Assembly (NCBI RefSeq): GCF_000711695.1
Contig: NW_013546878.1
Coordinates: 1 to 33,161, forward strand
DNA: 33,161 nt
DNA from: Tilletiaria anomala UBC 951
Taxonomy: Eukaryota; Basidiomycota; Exobasidiomycetes; Georgefischeriales; Tilletiariaceae
Direction of reading: 5' to 3'
The notes under the pieces were generated by a model. It ran no database searches, had not been told where the DNA came from, and saw only the letters and a list, made by a program, of their open reading frames with translations. Made by a program: the position numbers and the translations under genes. Positions 3,045 through 32,746 of this stretch are shown piece after piece. Position 1 is the first letter of the stretch; every line of letters begins with the position of its first letter.

Positions 3045-5366
3045 TCAGCGCTTGAGTGGTCGCTTAGTGGGGGATGCCAGTGCCGGGAGAGCAGCATGTG
3101 CAACGTGGTCGCGAAGAGCCAAGGAGACGCCTGTGCGCCGCAACGACCTGGACTGTGCGACGACAGATGTGGGGGACTCGTTCGAGCTGTGGCGCGTGCG
3201 GCGCGGCGGTGTCGCTTGTCCTTTCATCCCAAGCTTAACTGGCTCCGCGACTGACGACGTCCTCACAGCTTTGTGCGGTTGCGAAGACTTGCTGAATGGG
3301 GAGTCCGGCGTGCCGACAAGGGCGCGTCGCGTTCGCTTGCTGCTGTCCAAGACGGTGTTGGTCTGCTCGGCGAGAACAGAGCCTTGTGAGCTGATGCTGG
3401 CTGCATCTTGTGCAGGCCTCGCGGCGGGCGATCGGCGCGCCTTTTGCCGCGTTGCAGAAGAAGAAAATCGTCTCTCTGCAGCGGGTAGCGGCGTGTCGCC
3501 TCCGGCAGCGTCGAGAACGTCGCTGATATGCGACATTACGCTGCGCGAGTGCTCCAACGAGAGCGGCTCGAATTCCGCGCCGACCAGTGGCAGCGTTTGC
3601 GGCGAGTCCGTGCCGCTGGGAGTGGTGATGGTTAGCACAGGCGCAGCCATTGCAGCAGGCGTGATCGAGCCTGCGCTGCTTGATGGTGTGAGGCCGCTTG
3701 TGCTCGCGTGTGCCTGCGCTTGTGCGGTCGAGGTAGACGCAATTCGCGATCCCGGCGAGTCGCCTTGCAACGCCGCTCGGAGCACCTCAATGCTGTATGC
3801 TTTACGGAGGCTCGCTGGCCGCAAGCATCCGGCATTGCGCGGTGCCACTGCAACTTCAGATGAGAGGAGAGGCTGTGCGGGCGCCGAGACCAGAAGCGCG
3901 GGAACCGCGGCCTCTTGGACGGGAGGATCAAGAGACTGCCCGCTTGCTCTGGACAGTGAAGAGAGACTGTTACGCCATCCCTCGGGACTCGCCTCGCCCG
4001 ATGATATGTCCGCGGCAACCGACATTGACTCGCGCATAGTCGGCTGCGCCTGCCCAAAGGCATCGATCGAACTGCGCCTCTGAATGGGCGCGCCGGACAG
4101 AAGCCTTGCAGACAATGTCGTAGATGCCATCTCTGCACTGCCAATGCCGACCTGAACGATGGACCGCGACAGCAAAGATTTGCTGCTGCATGCTGTTCCA
4201 CTCGCGTCACGCAACGCTAGACTTGCTTGCCAGAGGTCATTCTTGCTCCTTCGCTTTCGCAGCAGCGGCCGCTTGGAAGTTGCAAGAGAGGGGCTGAGCC
4301 GTATCGCGCCACCGTCATCGTTGGTTGTTTGGGCTGTGATTGTCGCTGAAAACCCTTCAGCTGCAGAAGTGAGGACAATCGACGGTAGGATCGATTCCGC
4401 TCGCTCCGTAGCAGCAGCATGCGTGATGGTGCTCTTGCTCTTGCGGAGGTGCCTCTTGGGCGATGGCCTCTCGATGCGTATTGGTGCAACGGCTTCTATC
4501 GCCGCCTGATCGTCATCGCCATGTGGAAATCTCACCAGCCAATCGCTGCTGGTCGTCCCGCCAGGTTGGTCCGCGCTGGGAGGCCAAAGTGCCGTCACAC
4601 TCGAAATCCAGCTTGCGGCGCTCCCGACAGGAGACATCAGTGCTGCCTCTTCGGCTTCCACTTGCTTTGTCGCCCTGCCGGTGCCCATCCAGTTCCAGAT
4701 GGAGGTAGAGCTCGCAGCGCTGGAGGCTGACCAAGAGCCGGGTATCGGTCCTCGAGCAGCTCCCTCCGCGGCACTTCGTCCGCTGAAGCTGCCTTGGCGT
4801 CGCTGTTCCATGGCGGTTAGAGCGTGTATCGCCTCGTCCTCCTCACGTCTGCCGCGCGCTGCCAGTTCAGCGGCGAGCCTTTTCTGATCAGGGGTGATGA
4901 CACGCGTTTCCCTGTAGCCAGCTCGCTCTAGAAGCTCCTGGAGACTGTCAAAGGTGGTTTCTTTGATATGAGCTTGCCGAGGATGTCGTTGAGACAGCGA
5001 TGCTGTTGGTAATCGTGGAGGTCGCGCAGGTGGGGTGGGGAGAGCGTCGACTTCTGGAGGCGATGCTGATTTCTGTGTGGTAGAGCGCAGAAGCTCGGCC
5101 GTCCTCCTTCGCGCAGCGATGCCGCTTTTTGACTGCGTGAGATGGGACGATCCCTTCAATGTGACAATCTCAGCCGAGGATACTGTGCGGCGGGCCTTCG
5201 GAGTTGAAGCTTTGCGACCATTTGCAGCGATGAGGGTGGATTTGTTGGACTTTTGATTTAATACACATGATGTGGTCAGTCCGTCTCCAGAAAGCTGCAC
5301 GCTCTGAAGGGGTGTTGTACAGACTGGTGGGTGGCTCTGTCGGCCTTCCCGCGTTAACGTAGCCAT
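3045..5366 (-). CDS. Hypothetical Ser-rich protein with one ordered helical block
   Basis: This is a single uninterrupted 773-codon frame starting MATLTREGRQ, with no introns needed. Its length and sustained frame support a real gene. The sequence is largely disordered (Ser, Ala, Arg, Thr), with many RRxS and SP sites that would suit kinase regulation (inference). The only ordered-looking part is at about residues 133-180: KETTFDSLQELLERAGYRET followed by RVITPDQKRLAAELAARGRR and an acidic helix. This looks like a short conserved fungal motif, but I cannot name the family. Further Trp-containing blocks (STSIWNWMGTG and SAASWISSVTALWPPS) lie at about 220-265. The C-terminus is basic (SPTKRPLKR). 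No membrane segments or catalytic motifs are visible. Confidence 0.7.
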   Translation of the reverse strand: MATLTREGRQSHPPVCTTPLQSVQLSGDGLTTSCVLNQKSNKSTLIAANGRKASTPKARRTVSSAEIVTLKGSSHLTQSKSGIAARRRTAELLRSTTQKSASPPEVDALPTPPARPPRLPTASLSQRHPRQAHIKETTFDSLQELLERAGYRETRVITPDQKRLAAELAARGRREEDEAIHALTAMEQRRQGSFSGRSAAEGAARGPIPGSWSASSAASSTSIWNWMGTGRATKQVEAEEAALMSPVGSAASWISSVTALWPPSADQPGGTTSSDWLVRFPHGDDDQAAIEAVAPIRIERPSPKRHLRKSKSTITHAAATERAESILPSIVLTSAAEGFSATITAQTTNDDGGAIRLSPSLATSKRPLLRKRRSKNDLWQASLALRDASGTACSSKSLLSRSIVQVGIGSAEMASTTLSARLLSGAPIQRRSSIDAFGQAQPTMRESMSVAADISSGEASPEGWRNSLSSLSRASGQSLDPPVQEAAVPALLVSAPAQPLLSSEVAVAPRNAGCLRPASLRKAYSIEVLRAALQGDSPGSRIASTSTAQAQAHASTSGLTPSSSAGSITPAAMAAPVLTITTPSGTDSPQTLPLVGAEFEPLSLEHSRSVMSHISDVLDAAGGDTPLPAAERRFSSSATRQKARRSPAARPAQDAASISSQGSVLAEQTNTVLDSSKRTRRALVGTPDSPFSKSSQPHKAVRTSSVAEPVKLGMKGQATPPRRTRHSSNESPTSVVAQSRSLRRTGVSLALRDHVAHAALPALASPTKRPLKR

Positions 5367-11678: not shown

Positions 11679-14600
11679 ATGTCGTCCAAAGGTACGTGGG
11701 CCACATGGAGCGGCTAGGCTAGTGTCCCACTCGCCCCGATCAACCGAGAGACTCACTGACCGAACCCCAACCAAACTCCCTGCTTTCACAGCCATTCGCG
11801 AGTTTGACGCCAAGCTGCTGGTTAACTACTGGCTTCCGCGCTCCCCGCTTGTACACGAGAACGCAGCCGTATCAACATCCTTTGTCGCGCCGCAGCCCAA
11901 GGTAGCGCAGATCTCATGGGACCCCGAGACCGGCGCACTCACCGCAGAGCAGACCCTCCCCAGCTGGGTCTTCAACACCAAGCTCGTCGCCAAGCCGGAC
12001 CAGCTGATCAAGCGTCGTGGCAAGGCCGGCCTGCTCAAGCTTAACTGCGACTGGCCAGAGGCAAAGCAATGGATCCAGGAGCGGGCAGGCAAGCCGCAGA
12101 AGGTGTGTGACCGCAAATACATTTTTGGTCCCTCTCCACATGTCCGCTAAAAGCATTCTTCTGGTCGTCGGACAGGTCGAGACAGTGACCGGCACGCTGA
12201 ACAATTTCATCGTCGAACCACTGTTCCCACATGCGGCCGACACAGAGTACTACGTGTGCATCAACTCGGCGCGTGAGGGCGACTACATTCTCTTCACCCA
12301 CGAGGGTGGTGTCGACGTCGGTGATGTCGACGCGAAAGCGCTCAAGCTGTTGATTCCCGCCGATCCGACGCAGCCGTTCCCAAGCCGCGCACAGTGGACC
12401 TCCACGCTGCTCCCCGGCGTGCCGGCTGCCAAGAAGGAGATCCTCACCGACTTTTTGATCCGCCTCTACTCGGTGTACGCCGACTTGCACTTTGCCTACC
12501 TCGAGATCAACCCACTCGTCGTCACCGATGATGGCACCATCGCCTACCTTGACATGGCTGCCAAGCTCGACCAGACCGCCGAGTTCATCTGCGGGCCCAA
12601 GTGGGCCGTCGCGCGCGACCCGTCCGTCTACAACGACAAGGCCGTCAGCACAGCCGCCAAGGGCGAGGAGCGCGGCCCGCCCATGTACTGGCCTGCGCCG
12701 TTCGGCCGCGACCTGACCAAGGAGGAGGCATACATTGCCAAGCTTGACTCGGGCACCGGTGCATCGCTCAAGCTCACCGTCCTCAACGCCAAGGGCCGCA
12801 TCTGGACCATGGTCGCAGGCGGTGGTGCCTCGGTCGTCTACTCTGACGCGATCGCCGCCCACGGCTTTGCGCACGAGCTTGCCAACTATGGCGAGTACTC
12901 GGGCGCCCCCTCCGAGGGTCAGACGTTCGAGTACGCCAAGACGCTGCTCGACCTCATGACACGCGGAGATCCGCACCCTGAGGGCAAGCTGCTGATCATC
13001 GGCGGTGGTATTGCCAACTTTACCAACGTCGCAGCGACGTTCAAGGGCATCATCCGTGCACTCAAGGAGTACAAGCAGGCGCTCATCAAGCACAACGTCC
13101 GCATCTTTGTCCGTCGCGGCGGCCCCAACTACCAGGAGGGCCTAAAGGCGATGCGCCTGCTCGGCGAGGACCTCGGTGTAGACATCCACGTCTTTGGACC
13201 CGACACGCACATCACCGACATTGTCCCTCTCGCGCTCGGCGTCAAGCAGCTCTCGGACGTCCAGCTTGGTATCCAGCCGGCAACGTCGCACGACATTGCT
13301 GCGCCCACCAGTGGCGCCGCGACTCCGAACCCACAGGTTAACGGCTCGGCCGCCAACAAGCAGCCCGATGGCCTCGTCGGCCAGGTCGACTACCAGACCG
13401 GCCAGCGCACACAGCTGCAGGACCAGATCGTCACGTTCGACTCGGCCACCGGTGCCCTTACCCGCCCGGACTACCGCCCCTTTGACGAGCACACGCGCTC
13501 GCTCATCTACGGCCTCCAGCCACGCGCGATCCAGGGCATGCTCGACTTTGACTACGCCTGCGGCCGCAGCACACCATCGGTCGCGGCGATGATCTACCCC
13601 TTCGGCGGGCACCACATCCAGAAGTTCTACTGGGGCACCAAGGAGACGCTCCTGCCCGTCTACACATCCGTCGCCGAGGCGTGCAAGAAGCACCCGGACG
13701 CCGACGTCGTCGTCAACTTCGCCTCCAGTCGCTCCGTGTACAGCTCTTCGCTCGAGGTGCTGTCGCACCCGCAGATCCGCGCGCTCGCGCTCATCGCTGA
13801 GGGCGTGCCCGAACGTCATGCACGTGAGATTCTCTGGCGCGCCAAGCAGGCCAACGTGCTGATCATCGGCCCCGCCACCGTCGGCGGAATCAAGCCCGGC
13901 TGCTTCCGCATCGGCAACTCGGGCGGCATGATGGATAACATCATCTCCTCCAAGCTCTACCGCGCCGGCTCTGTCGGCTACGTGTCCAAGTCCGGCGGCA
14001 TGTCCAACGAGCTAAATAACATCCTCTCCCTTACCACCAACGGCACCTATGAGGGCATCGCCATCGGAGGCGACCGCTACCCCGCCACGACGTTCATCGA
14101 CCACCTGCTGCGCTACGAGAAAGATCCTGCCTGCAAACTTCTCGTCCTTCTCGGCGAGGTTGGCGGTGTCGAGGAGTACCGCGTCATCGACGCGGTCAAG
14201 CAGGGTATCATCACCAAGCCTATCGTCGCCTGGGCCATCGGCACATGCGCAAAGATGTTCACAACCGAGGTCCAGTTCGGCCACGCCGGTTCGATGGCCA
14301 ACTCGGACATGGAGACCGCCTCGGCCAAGAACCTTGCGATGAAGCAGGCCGGTTTCATCGTCCCCGACACGTTTGAAGACCTCCCCGTCGTCCTGCGTCA
14401 GGTGTACGAGAAGATGGTCGCCAACGGCGACATCTCCCCGCGGCCCGAGCGCCCGCCCCCTACGATCCCCGTCGACTACAACTGGGCCCGCGAGCTCGGT
14501 ATGGTCCGCAAACCCGCTGCGTTCATCTCGACTATTTCCGATGAGCGCGGCGCCGAGCTGATCTACTCGGGCGTCACTATCTCCGAGGTGTTCGCGTCCA

Positions 14601-15507
14601 ACATGGGCATCGGCGGCGTCATCTCTCTGCTCTGGTTCAAGCGCCGTCTGCCCGAGTACTGCACCAAGCTCATCGAGATGGCGCTCTGCCTCTGCGCCGA
14701 CCACGGCCCAGCGGTTTCCGGCGCGATGACGTCTATCATCACCACGCGTGCCGGCAAGGACCTTGTCAGCTCGCTCTGCGCCGGTCTGCTCACCATCGGC
14801 TCGCGCTTCGGCGGCGCGCTCGACGATGCTGCGATCGAGTTCTCTGCCGCATATGACAAGGGGCTGACGCCAAGAGAGTTCGTCGATTCGATGCGCAAGC
14901 AGTCGCGTCTTATCCCCGGTATCGGCCACAAGATCAAGTCGCTGCGCAACCCGGACCAGCGGGTCGTGCTCGTCGTTGACTACGTCAAGAAGACATTCCC
15001 GTCGCACCCTCTGCTCGACTATGCTTTGAAGGTCCAGGCAGTAACGACAGCGAAGAAGGACACCCTGATTCTCAAGCAAGTATACAGTGTGGACCCCTGT
15101 TGAATGACAGGGAAACTAACACAAAATATTCGTACCCTTTTTCCCTCCTTGCAGTGTCGACGGTGCGCTCGCCATCGCCATGGTTGACATGCTCAGGAAC
15201 TGCTTCACTCCCGCTGAGGCAGCCGAGTACGTCGAACTCAAGTTCCTGAACGGACTCTTTGTGTGAGCAGCCCTGGCAAGGTTCGCCCGTTGACACAAGG
15301 AGACCAAGGTACTGACTTCATGCTCTTGCTGTGGCCTCTACCTTCTTCTTTTTGACCAGCGTTGCGCGCTCAATCGGCTTCATCGGTCACCACCTGGATC
15401 AGCGCCGCCTCAAGAGCAACCTGTACAGGCACCCAGCCGACGACTTCTACATCAACTGCCTCACTCCAGACCGTGTCCTCGTCAACCCGGCCAAGGCAAA
15501 CAAGTGA
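11679..15507 (+). CDS. ACL1: ATP-citrate lyase, fused single-chain form, 5 exons
   Basis: Cytosolic enzyme: citrate + CoA + ATP to acetyl-CoA + oxaloacetate + ADP + Pi, the main source of cytosolic acetyl-CoA for fatty acid and sterol synthesis. The exons are 11679-11691, 11792-12102, 12176-15075, 15155-15262 and 15360-15507, giving about 1159 residues. The first exon encodes only MSSK plus one base. The order is: ATP-grasp/citrate-binding half (about 1-430); a low-complexity linker ([19 protein letters not shown]); the CoA-ligase half with phospho-histidine motif [19 protein letters not shown] (His about 811, matching human His760); and a C-terminal citrate-synthase-like domain ([20 protein letters not shown] through [20 protein letters not shown]). 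The third intron appears to use a GC donor. The fused form is typical of animals and basidiomycetes, while ascomycetes split it. Human ACLY is 1101 aa, so the length fits. Splices 4 and 5 restore the conserved LILNVDG and LNGLFVVARSIGF. Confidence 0.95.
15076..15154 (+). other. Non-canonical GC-AG intron in ATP-citrate lyase
   Basis: The exon end reads ATTCTCAA followed by GCAAGTATAC, and the intron ends in CTCCTTGCAG. Using the GC donor gives CTC AAT GTC GAC (LNVD), exactly the conserved LILNVDG of the family. The nearby GT (in AAGTATAC, two or more bases on) leaves the wrong phase for the downstream exon. AA|GCAAGT is the usual strong consensus of GC donors. Confidence 0.85.
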
Positions 15508-21234: not shown

Positions 21235-24200
21235 ATGCTACCTAGAACCATGCTCCGCGGCCTCGCCTATCAAGCCTCCCAGCGGCCGATCGAGACGATC
21301 GTCAGCGTCTTCATCTTCGTCACCTTATCATACTTCAAGCTGCTACATGCCATCACGCATTCCAACTTCTTCGACTCGTTGGGCACAGATGTAATCGGAT
21401 TGGATCTCGCGTCTTCCGTAACGAGTTCAGCCAGCGGGGCCCATAATGCTTCATATGGAAAAAGCACGTGGGTCAAGGCACCATCGGCTGCCGGTATCGC
21501 CGACCTCTGGCAAGCGCGCACCCTGTCGCCAGAGGAGCAGGCCGCGCTCGGCACACAGCTGCTCTCGCTCAGGCCGATCCTTCTCGTCGACACCGATGCA
21601 TCCTCGCAAGACGGCAGCCGATCAGTCCTTCAGGCCGTCACGCGGGCCGTGAGCAATGCTCTGACCAGCGCGAGCGGAATCGTCTCCAAGCCCGTCTCGG
21701 TCGACGCGTCCGTCTCTACGTTTGCCGTCGCCTTCGAGGGCGCAAACACGGCGGAAGAGAAAGAGTTGCTCTTGCAGCTCAGCGAGGAGTCCTTCCTCAG
21801 CGGCATCATTAACTCCAGCCTCAACGCTAAACTCCCAAGCCGAAGCTCCGAGACGCACCAGTGGCAGCTCTTGCCCATCCTCTCCGCGCATAGCTTTGCA
21901 CAGGCCGGACGACCGATCCCTCGTGTCGCCCAGTCGCAGCATCCGACCGAGCAGATGCGTTCGTTCCGATGGATGGCGTATGCCAGTCGCTCGCTCGTAG
22001 AAAAATTCTGGGCGCTGCTCAAGGTGCGTCATTTCTCGGCTATTCCGCATCCCTTTGTACACTTTTTGTCTGCTTGTGCCTGTTCGTGGTCTCTGACACG
22101 TCGACTCCACTCCATTCACCCCTGTTGCATACTTGTCTGTCTCGTCACTTCCCGCTTCAACAGAAAGCAGACTCAGCAGACATTTTCGTCATGCTGTCCG
22201 CCTACGTCTTTATGCATGCATCATTTGTCAACCTCTTCCTCTCCATGCGCAAATTTGGCTCCAATTTTTGGCTAGGTGAGCACGCTGCAGACCCTGTGTT
22301 TGGATTTCATTCGTGGCTGACTCTCGACCTTTCTTCCCTGCTGCTTCGTAGGTACCTCGGTCCTCATCTCGAGCACATTCGCTTTCCTGCTTGCCCTTAC
22401 CACCGCCTACTACTGCGGCGTGACTGTCGACCCGATCTGCTTGTCTGAGGCTCTCCCGTTCTTTGTCGTGATTGTCGGGTTCGAGAAGCCCTACAATCTC
22501 ACACGTGCAGTCTTTACCCACCCCTCTTTTGCACCTTCCCACCCGAGTCCGAGCAAGGCGAAGCGCAACTTCCTTCTCGACGCTCTCAACGAGACGGAGC
22601 CAGCTTCGCAGGATGGCGCCGCGGATGTACCGCACACCGGAAGCATCTCGCGCGAGGAGTCTTTCGTGCGCGCTCTTACCGCCCGCCTCAGGGAGGAATC
22701 CGCCGCGCTCAGCTGGGACCTGCCGCAGCCACTTCCAGCTCGTGACATTATCCTCTCCGCCATCGACACCGAGGGCACGCGAATCGCGAAAGATTACATG
22801 ATCGAGATCGCCGTCTTGGCTGTCGGTGCGACCAGCGGCCTCAGTGGCCTTCGCGAGTTCTGTCAGCTGGGTGCGCTCATCCTTGCGTTCGACTGCGTTT
22901 TCCTCTTCTCCTTCTACGCCGGCATCCTCACCGTCATGGTCGAGGTACATCGCATCAAGATCCTCCGCGGCACTCGCAATGTCCAGCAGCTTGCCACCCC
23001 GCCTAACAATGACACCGATCAGGATGCGCTCGATGCAACGCGGTCCAGCGGCACGCCGACGCCGACTTCCCAGTCGTCGAACAGGGGGCTGAGCCCGAGC
23101 AGGGCGAACCGTCCGCTCTGGCACAAGGCCTTCAAGCTTGTCTTTGGCTACATTCCCTTTGAGAGGCGAAAGGGCACCGAGAATCCAGTTGCTAGGCTCA
23201 AGATCATGCTCTTGACCTCCTTCCTCATCCTCCACTCGCTCAACCTGGTCTCGACGCTGACGACGCAGTCAGCTTTCTCCCGACACCAGTCAACGCAGGT
23301 GCTCACGCCGCACGAGGCATTCCTCCAATTGACCGGCCTCACCAGTTGGACGCCGAATGCGCCAGCTTTGTCACCGCTACTCGCAGACCTGGCACGCCAG
23401 CACAAGGATAATCTCGTCGTGCAGGTCTCTGAGCCTGTCATCCTCGCGCTTGTCGACCCGCAGTCGCCGAACGCGCAGGCCAACACGCTCAGCGCCCTTG
23501 CTTTGAATATGTCTGCATTGAACAAGACGCTGAAGGCGCGCTCCATCTTTGTGACTCGTGAAGTCGGCCGGTCGTCCAGCTTTGACGTCCTAGACAGCCT
23601 CATGCTTGGCTGGACGAGCATCGTTGGCGACCCGGTCATCAGCAAATGGATGTCCATTGCGCTCGCTGTCAGCATCTTCCTCAACACGTACCTTCTCAAG
23701 GGGATTGCCACCGGCAATGCTGCAGTAGCGCAGGGCAATGCAGCAGGTGCAGCAGCTTTTGCGGCTGCGCGTATGCTTGGAGCTCACTTGAACCCCGAGC
23801 AGACCTTGAACGAGCGTCTGGACCATGTTCGTCGGCGTTGGAGCGACAAGGGGAGTGATCGCACGAAAGTCGATGCAACAGGCATCGACAGTTATCACAA
23901 GCGAATGGCGCGGATCTCGGCAGAGAAAGCTTCCTCCAAACTAGAGCTGCCTGGGCCGATGCCGAGCGCGTCGGTTCACAGCACTGGTGTACCAGCCGCT
24001 GCGATCAAGTCCGATGTGGGTGAGGCGCTGCGGAAGCTCAATGGCCATCGTGATTTGCCTACCACTTCCGACGGAGAAGGCGCGTTGGTTTCTCCCAGGG
24101 AGCGCGTCGTGTCTCTTAGCCTGCAGCCCACCACACAGATGTCCGCAAACCGCAATGTCGATGTTCGACCCTTCGACGAGCTGCTGGAGCTGTATGCAGG

Positions 24201-25712
24201 CGGGGCAGGCGTCTTTTTCCTCTCTGACGAGGAGATTATTGTCCTCTCGCAAAAAGGCAAGATTGCTGGGCATGCGCTCGAGAAGCTCCTCCAAGACCAC
24301 GACCGAGCTGTCAGGATCCGAAGGGCGCTCGTCTCCCGTGCCTCATTCAGCCGTTCGCTGGAGACTTCCCTTCTGCCGCACAGCAACTACAACTACGCTC
24401 AGGTCATGGGTGCATGTTGCGAAAATGTCGTAGGCTACATGCCCATCCCCGTCGGCATTGCTGGTCCGCTCAACATTGATGGTCAGACGATCCCGATTCC
24501 GATGGCCACGACCGAGGGCACGCTTGTCGCCTCGACGTCACGTGGCTGCAAGGCCCTCAATGCGGGCGGCGGTGTGACGACCGTCCTCACCCAGGACGCC
24601 ATGACGCGTGGTCCTGCGCTGGAATTTCCTTCGGTCATTCAGGCGGCCAAAGCGAAGCGATGGATTGACTCACAAGAAGGTGCAAGCACCATCAAAGCTG
24701 CCTTCGACTCGACCTCTCGCTTTGCAAGGCTGTCATCACTGCGCTGCGTGCTTGCCGGTCGTACTCTCTTTGTCCGCTTTGCTACGGCCACTGGTGACGC
24801 CATGGGCATGAACATGATCTCGAAGGGTGTGGAAAAGGCATTAGTAATGATGACTGAGGACCACTTCCCGGATATGAAGGTGCTGTCTTTATCCGGCAAC
24901 TATTGTACGGACAAGAAGCCTGCTGCGATCAACTGGATCGAGGGGCGAGGCAAGAGTGTTGTCGCAGAGGCCGTCGTACCGGGCAGCGTTGTCAAGACTG
25001 TGCTCAAGACGACCGTCGCTGACCTCGTCAACCTCAATATCAAGAAGAATCTCATCGGCAGTGCCATGGCTGGCTCCATTGGAGGATTCAACGCGCATGC
25101 CGCGAACATTTTGACTTCGATCTATCTGGCGACCGGGCAAGACCCCGCACAGAATGTCGAGAGCTCCAATTGCATGACTTTGATGGAGGCCACAAATGGC
25201 GGAGAAGACCTTCTGATCACTGTCTCTATGCCCTCGATTGAGGTCGGTACAGTCGGCGGTGGCACTGTGCTCTCGCCGCAACGCGCCATGCTGGAGATGA
25301 TCGGCGTCGCGGGTGCGCATCCGAGCAAGCCGGGTGCCAACGCGCAGCGCCTGGCATGCATTATCGCCGCCTCGGTCATGGCTGGCGAGTTGAGCCTAAT
25401 GTCTGCATTGGCTGCCGGACATCTGATCCAGGCACACATGAAGCATAACCGCAGTGTGCCATCTACGCCAGGCAACGTCACGCCGAACCGACCAGAGACG
25501 CCGAAACACTTTGCTGCACAAATGAGTGAGTATCGCATCACAAGTGGCTTGAAGGAACAACCTGACCGATCATAATCACGTATTTCTTGACAGCTCCGCT
25601 CGTGGCTATGTCCATCAACGGGAGCGCCGCCCCATCTCGAACATCGCCGACAACCTCGGAACCGACCACATCGCTACGGATCGATCACGCGCGAAGGGCC
25701 ACGCACCACTGA
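21235..25712 (+). CDS. HMG1: HMG-CoA reductase, 4 exons
   Basis: ER-membrane enzyme reducing HMG-CoA to mevalonate with two NADPH, the committed step of sterol and isoprenoid synthesis. The exons are 21235-22023, 22164-22275, 22352-25525 and 25594-25712, giving about 1397 residues. A hydrophobic anchor near the N-terminus ([18 protein letters not shown]) is followed by a lumenal domain and a sterol-sensing segment ([20 protein letters not shown] at 264, through [19 protein letters not shown]). A long Ser/Ala linker follows. The catalytic domain starts near [17 protein letters not shown] (about 991). Expected residues are seen: Glu in TTEGTLVAS (1022), Lys in DKKPAAINW (about 1155), Asp in GQDPAQNV (1231), His in AHMKHNRS (1329), plus the [11 protein letters not shown] motif. 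The Ser of HNRS (about 1335) matches the AMPK-regulated Ser872 of the human enzyme. The last exon adds a polar tail ending RRATHH; retaining the 68-bp intron would instead give a different short tail. Confidence 0.96.
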
Positions 25713-30136: not shown

Positions 30137-32746
30137 CTAGCTGCGATGTTTGCTCTTCTTCGCTGTGCGTGCGGCTTTGCCATTGGCACCGATTCGCGAG
30201 CCGCGCGAATTGCGATTTTGAGCAGCGATGCTCGCACTGAGCTTTGCCTTGTTCCGGTTCTTGTTTTTGACGTTGGCATGCGTGTAGAAGTTCTCAGCCT
30301 TGCGCTTCGATGTGGCCATCCGCGGTGCTTTCGCATTTTTCCCTCTCGCCTGCTCATCATCTTCTGACAATTGCTCTGCACGGGCTTTGTCCTCTGCCTT
30401 GCTGTGATCGCCGTGCTCAGACTCTTCGCCCTCTTCATCGGTGAAGGATTCATCCTCTTCTGCTTCTGCACCGCCAAAGACGTCATCCCACCCTAATTGC
30501 TCAAGGCTGTCGGCCGAAGCATCTGAGCCGTCGTCGTCGTCGTCTTCATCCTCCTCTTCTTGGATATCCTTGTCGTCTTCATCCTCCTCTGCTTGGATAT
30601 CCTCGTCGTCAAATTCCTCCGTGGACACTACCTCGGTGGCTTCATCTTTGTCAACACCGAGAGCACTCCTCTGATCACCCTCGGTGGCTCCTTTGGCCTC
30701 GCGGTGGACAGGGTTGATGCCACGCAGCGGTTGCGTGACGCCTTTGACGGCACCAGCCCACTTCTCCTTACCCGTGGCGTTCGACTCGGCCGTCGGCGGT
30801 GCTACGAAGAAAGGCAGCTTCCCTCGAATCCAATCGTTGAGAACGCATTTGGCTGCGGTCTCCATGTCAGGCTCGCCACCTCTGAGCAATTTGCCCATCT
30901 TTTTGGCCAGTTGCGACAGAAAGTCATCCGCGTCCATCCACTTGTTCAGACCATACGTCTTTTGCAGGTGCTCCGCCTTGATGCGACCTAGCAAGGCGGG
31001 TATATGCTCCGCTGGGGTCTCGAGATTCTCGACACGGACAACACCTTTAAGCACTGTGCCCGTCTCCGAGTCATGGGCGGATATAGGAACAATGCCCGGA
31101 CAGTCGATGAGATAGATCCGTCGCATAAGAGCAATGTATTGCCAAACTTTGGTCTCGCCGGGAATTGGTGCTGTTTTGCATACCTTCTTCTTCTTAAGCG
31201 TGTTAATAATGCTGGATTTGCCCGTGTTCGGGTATCCGACGAAGCCGACACTGATCTGCTTCTTGTCGGAGTGCAGCACACTATACTGGCGAAGTAAGGA
31301 AATGAGGCTGCCTTTTCCGAATGAGTTGTTGACGCTGGCGTGGAAAGCCAGTGTAGGGGCGGTTTGAGACAAAATCTTGACCCATCGAGCCTAAAAGCAT
31401 TAACAGTGTACGCCTGTGTCAGTTTCCCGCGGGCCAAACAAGGCAAAAAAAACAAATCCGAGATAACTGCATTGTCCATTCCAGAACTACGAACCTGTCG
31501 ATGCCCAAAGGGTATAGCAGACAGGCTGCAAGCGACAGGCTCAACTCATCCAGAAAGTTGTCAAGAGCGGCCAAACCTCCACACAAAGTGCCCTTCAATG
31601 GCGGGAGAAGAGCTGACTCTGCGGGTCGACTGCGCTAGCAACCGACAAAGAGGCCGTCCAACCCTTGCCATTCCTCTTCCACAATCGTAACAGCGGCCGC
31701 GCCACGGAGAAAAACAGGCAGCGGAGCTTGACTTGATTGTGGGACTCTAACAAGAAAACACGCGAGAATTGTGAACCGGGACAAGCACTCACCGTAACCC
31801 AAGTAGGCACCAAGTCGACCTTGTTGAGAACAAAGACTAGATGCTTATGCGGTTTTTCTTCCTTGATGTGCTTCTCAACGCTGCGACATCGTGTCCCCTC
31901 AGGGTCGCGTACATCGAGGACGTGAATGACGACGTCTGATGAGTCAATAACCTTGTATAGTTCGCCCCAGATCCTGCGCGATTGACCTTTCGAATATATT
32001 GGCTCCGAGCGTCCTCGCTGTACGGGAATTTCGTAGGGGACTTCCGCTTGCACCGCACCTATCTCGGCGTCCTCTGGCACTAGACCGACGCCTCGGGCTT
32101 TGGCTTGGGCAGCTTCTGCGGCAGTTTCGGCGTCATCAATCGCCGTTGTGCCAGACTGAGCAAATTCTTCAAAGGACCCAATTGCCGTAGGATCCAGACG
32201 CGGACGCTTTCTTCGGGCCGAAGGACCAAAAGTGTCAGAGAAAGATTCGACGGCGGTTAGCTTGTTGCTCCCAATGCCGGCCGGGGACGATTTGGAAGAG
32301 GGCTCCTGGATAAGACTCATAGGGAGTTTGTTGCGGCGAAGTAAGACCGAGTATGGGTCGTCGACACGCGAAGACATGCTCTCGCGGAAGTGTGCAAGGG
32401 CATCCTGACTGATAACGCGCGTGTTGCCAAACCATCTTCGATCTGGCTGTACTCGACCCGGTTTCGCTTCGGAACTTTGGAACTCGGCGGCCTGGATGAT
32501 ATTCCCATCCTTGTCACGGATGGCCTTGGAAGCAATGCCATTCTTGGCTAGAAGCTTGACCCGCTTTGCTCCCTTGGCATCGCGATAGAAGTTTTCTCCC
32601 CTTGAGTAAAGACGACAGGTAAAGCAGAATCAGCAACAGCGATCCGGGTGATGTGCAACCATCAGCTTGGATCCAATGAGATCAACTCACTTGACCTTTT
32701 TGATGCCTGGTGCGGACGACTTGGACTTCCCAATGCTCGCCGGCAT
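30137..32746 (-). CDS. NOG2: Nucleolar/nuclear GTPase Nog2 (60S ribosome assembly), 3 exons
   Basis: Circularly permuted GTPase needed for late nuclear maturation and export competence of pre-60S particles. The exons are 32691-32746, 31793-32600 and 30137-31390, giving 705 residues. The joins restore [20 protein letters not shown] and [19 protein letters not shown], both as in yeast Nog2. Conserved N-terminal blocks are [18 protein letters not shown] and [16 protein letters not shown]. The G motifs are in permuted order: G4 NKVDL (about 278-282), G1 GYPNTGKSS (about 340-348), G2 region [10 protein letters not shown]3 DCPG (about 384-387). The C-terminal tail is a long acidic Glu/Asp run followed by a basic nucleolar-type end (TAKKSKHRS). 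Intron 1 is 90 bp; intron 2 is 402 bp, about three times longer than any other well-supported intron here, and contains the H/ACA snoRNA described separately. Confidence 0.96.
31391..31792 (-). other. Long snoRNA-hosting intron 2 of NOG2
   Basis: GTGAGT donor at 31792-31787 and TTTTAG acceptor ending at 31391; 402 bp, phase 0. About 50 nt lie between the donor and the snoRNA start, and about 80 nt between the snoRNA end and the acceptor. The latter includes a T-run (GTTTTTTTTGCC) and a CTGAC branch-like site (in AACTGACAC, about 31422-31418). This spacing leaves room for both splicing signals and the snoRNP. Confidence 0.9.
31470..31741 (-). ncRNA. snR191: Intronic H/ACA snoRNA, snR191/U19-like
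   Basis: Guide RNA for pseudouridylation, about 272 nt; the ends are estimated. In the 5' hairpin the lower stem ACAATC (31740-31735) pairs with GATTGT (31686-31681). The left guide is AGTCA (31733-31729) and the right guide is GTTAC (31691-31687), under an upper stem AGC.CCGC.GCC / GGC.GCGG.GCT. These guides pair with rRNA GUAAC-U-A-UGACU, the yeast U2258 context. The H box AGAGGA (31677-31672) starts 14 nt after the right guide begins. In the 3' hairpin the upper stem TGAGCCTGTCG pairs with CGACAGGTTCG. The left guide GAGT (31547-31544) and right guide TAGTT (31489-31485) pair with AACUA-U-G-ACUC, the U2260 context. ACA is at 31475-31473, again 14 nt after the right guide begins. An extra central hairpin (ATGGC/GCCAT) lies between. 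Yeast snR191 guides these two sites from the NOG2 intron (established knowledge). The sequence match here was made by eye. Confidence 0.88.

Follow-up and report, generated by a model that had tools for sequence, protein, structure and literature searches.

The locus described here raises the question of whether the second intron of a fungal NOG2 gene, 402 nucleotides (nt) long, encodes a box H/ACA small nucleolar RNA (snoRNA) of the yeast snR191 type. The gene lies in a stretch of 33,161 nt from the basidiomycete Tilletiaria anomala UBC 951 (contig NW_013546878.1, positions 1 to 33,161; hereafter the window), all coordinates are window positions unless stated otherwise, and the gene and its intronic RNA are on the minus strand. 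We conclude that the RNA at 31470..31744, about 275 nt with ends inferred from a covariance model match, is very probably an orthologue of yeast snR191, that is, an intron-encoded box H/ACA guide for the uridines of helix 69 (H69) of the large-subunit (LSU) rRNA that are equivalent to U2258 and U2260. An snR191-type H/ACA identity, with its targets, boxes and NOG2 host, had been the original prediction, and it was upheld by a weak but full-length Rfam match, by the fold and by an independent second NOG2 locus.

The host gene was established from splicing and protein matches. Its exons (32746-32691, 32600-31793 and 31390-30137, including the stop; gene 30137..32746) join into a 705-residue product for which phmmer matched PDB chains bearing the name Nucleolar GTP-binding protein 2, namely 3jct_m (E 5e-172), 8pv1_Cd (1.2e-153) and 6lss_1 (1.1e-144), which we take to be the yeast, Chaetomium and human proteins; the best-scoring chain was thus 3jct_m and not 8pv1_Cd. 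Intron 2 (31391..31792) runs from GTGAGT to TTTTAG in phase 0 at the codon boundary VPTWVT|ARWVK, and its removal leaves an uninterrupted Nog2, so that the predicted 402-bp intron stands. The accompanying statement that other introns measure 47-140 bp holds for NOG2 intron 1 (90 nt), the single intron compared. Reading exon 2 onward in frame meets a stop codon inside intron 2; therefore, intron retention would yield a truncated Nog2. The acidic C-terminal tail of the protein (31252-30137), past about residue 498, lies outside the 3jct_m match, and the 8pv1_Cd and 6lss_1 matches extend to residues 631 and 634.

A box H/ACA snoRNA is built of two hairpins; box H (ANANNA) follows the first of them, and an ACA lies 3 nt short of the 3' terminus. 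Its guide is bipartite, lies in an internal loop and sits about 14-16 nt from the box. In the unconstrained minimum free energy fold of the 275 nt, the two guide hairpins form together with a third, internal one. The 5' hairpin (31679..31742) has an 8-bp lower stem, CCACAAUC/GAUUGUGG (31742-31735 with 31686-31679), a pocket and an upper stem; the pocket is bordered by the left guide AGUCA (31729..31733) and the right guide GUUAC (31687..31691), and the box H AGAGGA (31672..31677), which fits ANANNA, lies 14 nt from the start of the right guide. The 3' hairpin has a lower stem of 7 pairs, 2 of them G-U, by our reading of the same fold, and an upper stem-loop (31491..31542) whose stem GAGCCUGUCG/CGACAGGUUC has 10 pairs; its guides are GAGU (31544..31547) and UAGUU (31485..31489), and the ACA (31473..31475) is again 14 nt from the right-guide start and 3 nt from the inferred 3' end. 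The words AGUCA, GUUAC, AGAGGA, GAGU and ACAAUG are all single-stranded, leaving both boxes unpaired, and both loops are open save for the last base of UAGUU, of which UAGU is open and the fifth base paired. The internal hairpin occupies 31560..31671, downstream of box H and ahead of the 3' hairpin, a region in which the Rfam model is also structured. Thus, the two hairpins, the two boxes and the 14-nt spacings came out as had been predicted. Fold energies gave z values of -2.27 (hairpin 1, 31744-31672), -2.08 (hairpin 2), -1.35 (the middle part) and 0.0 (the opposite strand), which is weak evidence for the hairpins.

For the guide targets, pairing was read on an 84-nt 28S oligo containing H69 and 19 uridines, which was taken from a paper on a vertebrate R2 element (PMC12180492) and is not the LSU sequence of this fungus itself. 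Pocket 1 pairs 5+5 with GUAAC-UA-UGACU (GUUAC with GUAAC on the 5' side of the U2258 equivalent, AGUCA with UGACU on its 3' side), and pocket 2 pairs 4+5 with AACUA-UG-ACUC (UAGUU with AACUA 5' of the U2260 equivalent, GAGU with ACUC 3' of it). Each pocket has one clear best uridine among the 19, and these two lie 2 bases apart at what we take, from our own placing of the yeast numbers on the oligo letters, to be the equivalents of U2258 and U2260; the 5' pocket is directed at the former and the 3' pocket at the latter, as in an snR191-type guide, and the complementarity claimed for the pocket strands is therefore confirmed on this oligo. In yeast, Psi2258 and Psi2260 are attributed to snR191 in a published table (PMC8307265). 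Among 3000 random 5.2-kb sequences, Watson-Crick targets as good as these occurred in 8 for pocket 1 and in 15 for pocket 2. Functional H/ACA snoRNAs are stable RNAs bound by the proteins Cbf5, Nhp2, Nop10 and Gar1. Most probably, the RNA would be excised from the spliced NOG2 intron, would be bound by Cbf5/Nhp2/Nop10/Gar1 and would act in the nucleolus, where its 5' pocket would direct pseudouridylation of the U2258 equivalent and its 3' pocket that of the U2260 equivalent in helix 69.

The strongest evidence for the window snoRNA is the second NOG2 locus, a single relative and a small sample. When a 199-residue Nog2 query was run against prokaryote genomes, 32 pattern matches were obtained, of which one encodes a relative (65% identical). 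It lies at 64350-74946 of NYXK01000235.1, a contig titled Deltaproteobacteria bacterium CPC1, and is an intron-containing, fungus-like NOG2; the contig is apparently eukaryotic contamination in that metagenome-assembled genome. We read the locus as fungal because it has introns and because its Nog2, unlike that of the window, reaches its highest score with 8pv1_Cd (695 bits, with 3jct_m at 625 and 6lss_1 at 491), a chain that we take to come from Chaetomium, an ascomycete. Its NOG2 intron (positions 4672-5000 of the locus, 329 nt) interrupts the same codon boundary (VPTGVA|AAWVR) in the same phase 0 as intron 2 of the window, which disfavours an independent re-establishment of the pairing of host and guest, the alternative left open by the original prediction. 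The intron holds an snR191 match at 4708-4950 (43.0 bits, E 3.3e-7), and an RF01263 scan of the whole genome that carries it, at E up to 1, returned one match (5.3e-8), at this very place; among the control prokaryote genomes, 4 of 14 gave matches at E up to 1, none over the cut-off. The two RNAs share the guide words AGUCA, GUUAC, GAGU and UAGU and both 14-nt spacings, whereas they differ in score, in box H (AGAUUG in the second locus) and in the pocket 2 right guide, which is UAGUA there, so that the second RNA pairs 5+5 and 4+4 with the H69 oligo and its pocket 2 makes 8 bp against 9 in the window. Base pairs were compared in two stems, which were aligned manually between the two RNAs. The lower stem of hairpin 1 retains 6 of 8 pairs in the second locus, 2 with both bases altered, and the upper stem of hairpin 2 retains all 9 aligned pairs, 5 with both bases altered; together, 7 pairs differ on both sides with pairing kept. 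Folded alone, each hairpin of the second RNA shows the same open pockets as in the window.

The window RNA matched the Rfam snR191 family (RF01263) on the sense strand of the intron at 31744-31470, over model positions 1-273 of 273, with 18.3 bits and E 0.049 in a cmscan of 31380-31810 (431 nt). Dividing the E values by the 4227 families gives, by our own arithmetic, about 1e-5 for this single family in the 431-nt stretch and about 1e-3 in the window. The covariance check that had been proposed thus gave a full-length match in the right place but one below the gathering score of the family, which is 46 bits; the 43.0 bits of the second locus are also below it. By this score the window RNA is not an annotated member, but we treat the score as a curation line and not as a biological definition. 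When the intron was shuffled 100,000 times with its dinucleotides preserved, the strict pocket 1 pattern appeared in 4 of the shuffles, the strict pocket 2 pattern (using TAGT in place of TAGTT) in 218 and the two together in none; with relaxed patterns, the numbers were 215, 582 and 1. Together with the second locus, these counts bear out the view that chance is unlikely. Further Rfam matches, to snoR30, SMAD5-AS1_2 and MIR5286, lie on the opposite strand or in another place, are far under the cut-off and were taken as chance.

Several observations weigh against this identification. No Rfam match reached the gathering score, of which 18.3 bits falls far short, and in a scan of the whole window the E value of snR191 was 3.7, between SMAD5-AS1_2 (2.1) and snoR30 (4.3); because these two are presumed chance matches, the Rfam match alone is no proof. 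The RNA as a whole folds with an unremarkable energy (z -0.76), which is not evidence for a snoRNA. The pocket patterns were composed after the sequence had been seen, and the pocket 1 pattern matches once more in the window (33002, plus strand). When G-U pairs are allowed, random sequences offered targets as good in 142 of 3000 cases for pocket 1 and in 1464 of 3000 for pocket 2. As for the second locus, its box H AGAUUG is not a strict ANANNA, the global fold of its RNA forms hairpin 2 and not hairpin 1, with parts of the hairpin-1 guides and box H paired, and both the strict and the relaxed pocket 1 patterns miss its intron, the relaxed one matching twice elsewhere in the locus.

Three other explanations were considered. 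The first is that the RNA is a real snoRNA kept in NOG2 mainly for effects in cis (on splicing, on stability or as a stress-stable intron) and not for guiding, which we consider very unlikely. In yeast, cells from which the NOG2 intron had been removed grew less well (glycerol medium, 37 C) with NOG2 mRNA and protein unchanged, and growth was restored when the intron was supplied again, either in the chromosome or from a plasmid (PMC10667330); therefore, a guide role in trans is favoured over one in cis. The guide words are, moreover, conserved between the window and the second locus while stem letters differ. The second explanation, that the intron holds a degenerate, nonfunctional relic of snR191 and that the guide is supplied by another locus, would account for a score so far under the gathering threshold, and snR191 has indeed left NOG2 in some yeasts: in Candida parapsilosis and C. 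orthopsilosis, it is a separate transcript outside NOG2 (PMC5033589), and in Kazachstania africana, the NOG2 intron was lost and an snR191 copy lies elsewhere, while in Naumovozyma dairenensis, snR191 itself was lost (PMC4202332). However, the guides, boxes and spacings of the window RNA are intact, its two compared stems still pair despite the changes, and its pocket 2 pairs better than that of the second locus, so a relic seems most unlikely to us. The third, a long intron with guide-like words by chance, can draw on the post hoc patterns, the recurrence of pocket 1 and the whole-window E value, but it is close to negligible given the shuffles, the host intron, guide words and spacings shared with the second locus, and the published survey of NOG2 introns (PMC8476143).

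If the RNA is an orthologue of snR191, it may be asked why it is carried by NOG2 in particular. The original prediction held that the arrangement couples a GTPase to a guide; this can be kept in the sense of co-expression at most, as intron loss in yeast leaves NOG2 mRNA and protein unchanged (PMC10667330). In cryo-electron microscopy work on a late nuclear pre-60S particle of yeast, it is stated that H69 "is disrupted by Nog2", although the lost H69 density was also tied there to the removal of Rpf2 (PMC6393466), and the Rpf2 tail sits between Nog2 and H69-H71 (PMC7385084). The host protein thus seems to act at or near the helix that would be modified by its intronic RNA. We speculate that the pairing has persisted because the guide RNA and its host protein have one rRNA helix as their common site of action, with co-expression matching the number of H69-modifying ribonucleoproteins to that of the GTPase that subsequently reads or remodels H69. 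This would be a modify-then-check unit conserved across Dikarya, an idea that is testable but that we regard as unlikely. No paper naming snR191, NOG2 and H69 together was found in a library without most subscription journals, spellings such as "helix 69" not having been searched. The shared helix could be a coincidence, because many snoRNA host genes are ribosome-biogenesis genes and because separated or lost pairs of NOG2 and snR191 exist. Neither is the idea supported by the available text of a Nog2 mutational-scanning paper, in which H69 and pseudourid- have 0 occurrences (PMC9851907).

Elsewhere in the window, a fused ATP-citrate lyase (12017-15103, plus strand) is encoded in a single open frame of 1028 residues, and an HMG-CoA reductase (22420-25575, plus strand) also forms one long frame; these long uninterrupted frames suggest an intron-poor genome. 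ATP-citrate lyase is split in Pezizomycotina, and the fused form in the window would be in keeping with a basidiomycete. The window enzyme had one match in the genome carrying the second NOG2 locus (32% identity, residues 546-786), a match uninformative about the affinities of that fungus. The exact H69 pattern had no match in that genome and the exact LSU pattern none in viral contigs, where Nog2 queries gave 2 and 43 pattern matches with none confirmed as a relative.

Among known systems, vertebrate U19/SNORA74 resides in a different host gene and serves as the guide for the corresponding H69 sites of animals. In fungi, Lim et al. (2021) reported that conserved NOG2 introns encode H/ACA snoRNAs, including those of Ustilago, Pseudozyma, Meira and Malassezia, with the Meira stem-loop 2 and antisense element given as low confidence, and that the intron position is conserved in eight intron-poor species, four from Ustilaginomycotina, and in 72% of the fungi surveyed (PMC8476143); an earlier covariance search had listed snR191 in Saccharomycotina (PMC4937481). 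The window RNA has the same host gene and is the same kind of snoRNA as those of the survey. The pairing of NOG2 introns with H/ACA snoRNAs is therefore already published, smuts included, and the window RNA adds a new member; the suggestion that the pairing predates the split of ascomycetes and basidiomycetes is consistent with the survey and with the second locus but has not been new since 2021. What this work contributes is one more genome supporting the long-standing carriage of an H69 pseudouridine guide by NOG2, a case in which divergent copies, such as both RNAs described here, escape annotation when the Rfam gathering score is applied, and a possible link through a shared helix between a host protein and its guest RNA. 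A NOG2 intron is a common but not obligatory home for an RNA of this type, and it is the home found here, at the same site in both loci. Compared with yeast snR191, the RNA of the window has diverged so far in sequence that its match falls under the gathering score; it is nevertheless the same in its host gene (YNR053C in yeast), in its two-pocket H/ACA architecture with structure between the pockets and in its predicted targets, the equivalents of Psi2258 and Psi2260 (PMC8307265), and it retains the 3' pocket word AUGAGUUGAG of the RF01263 model consensus.
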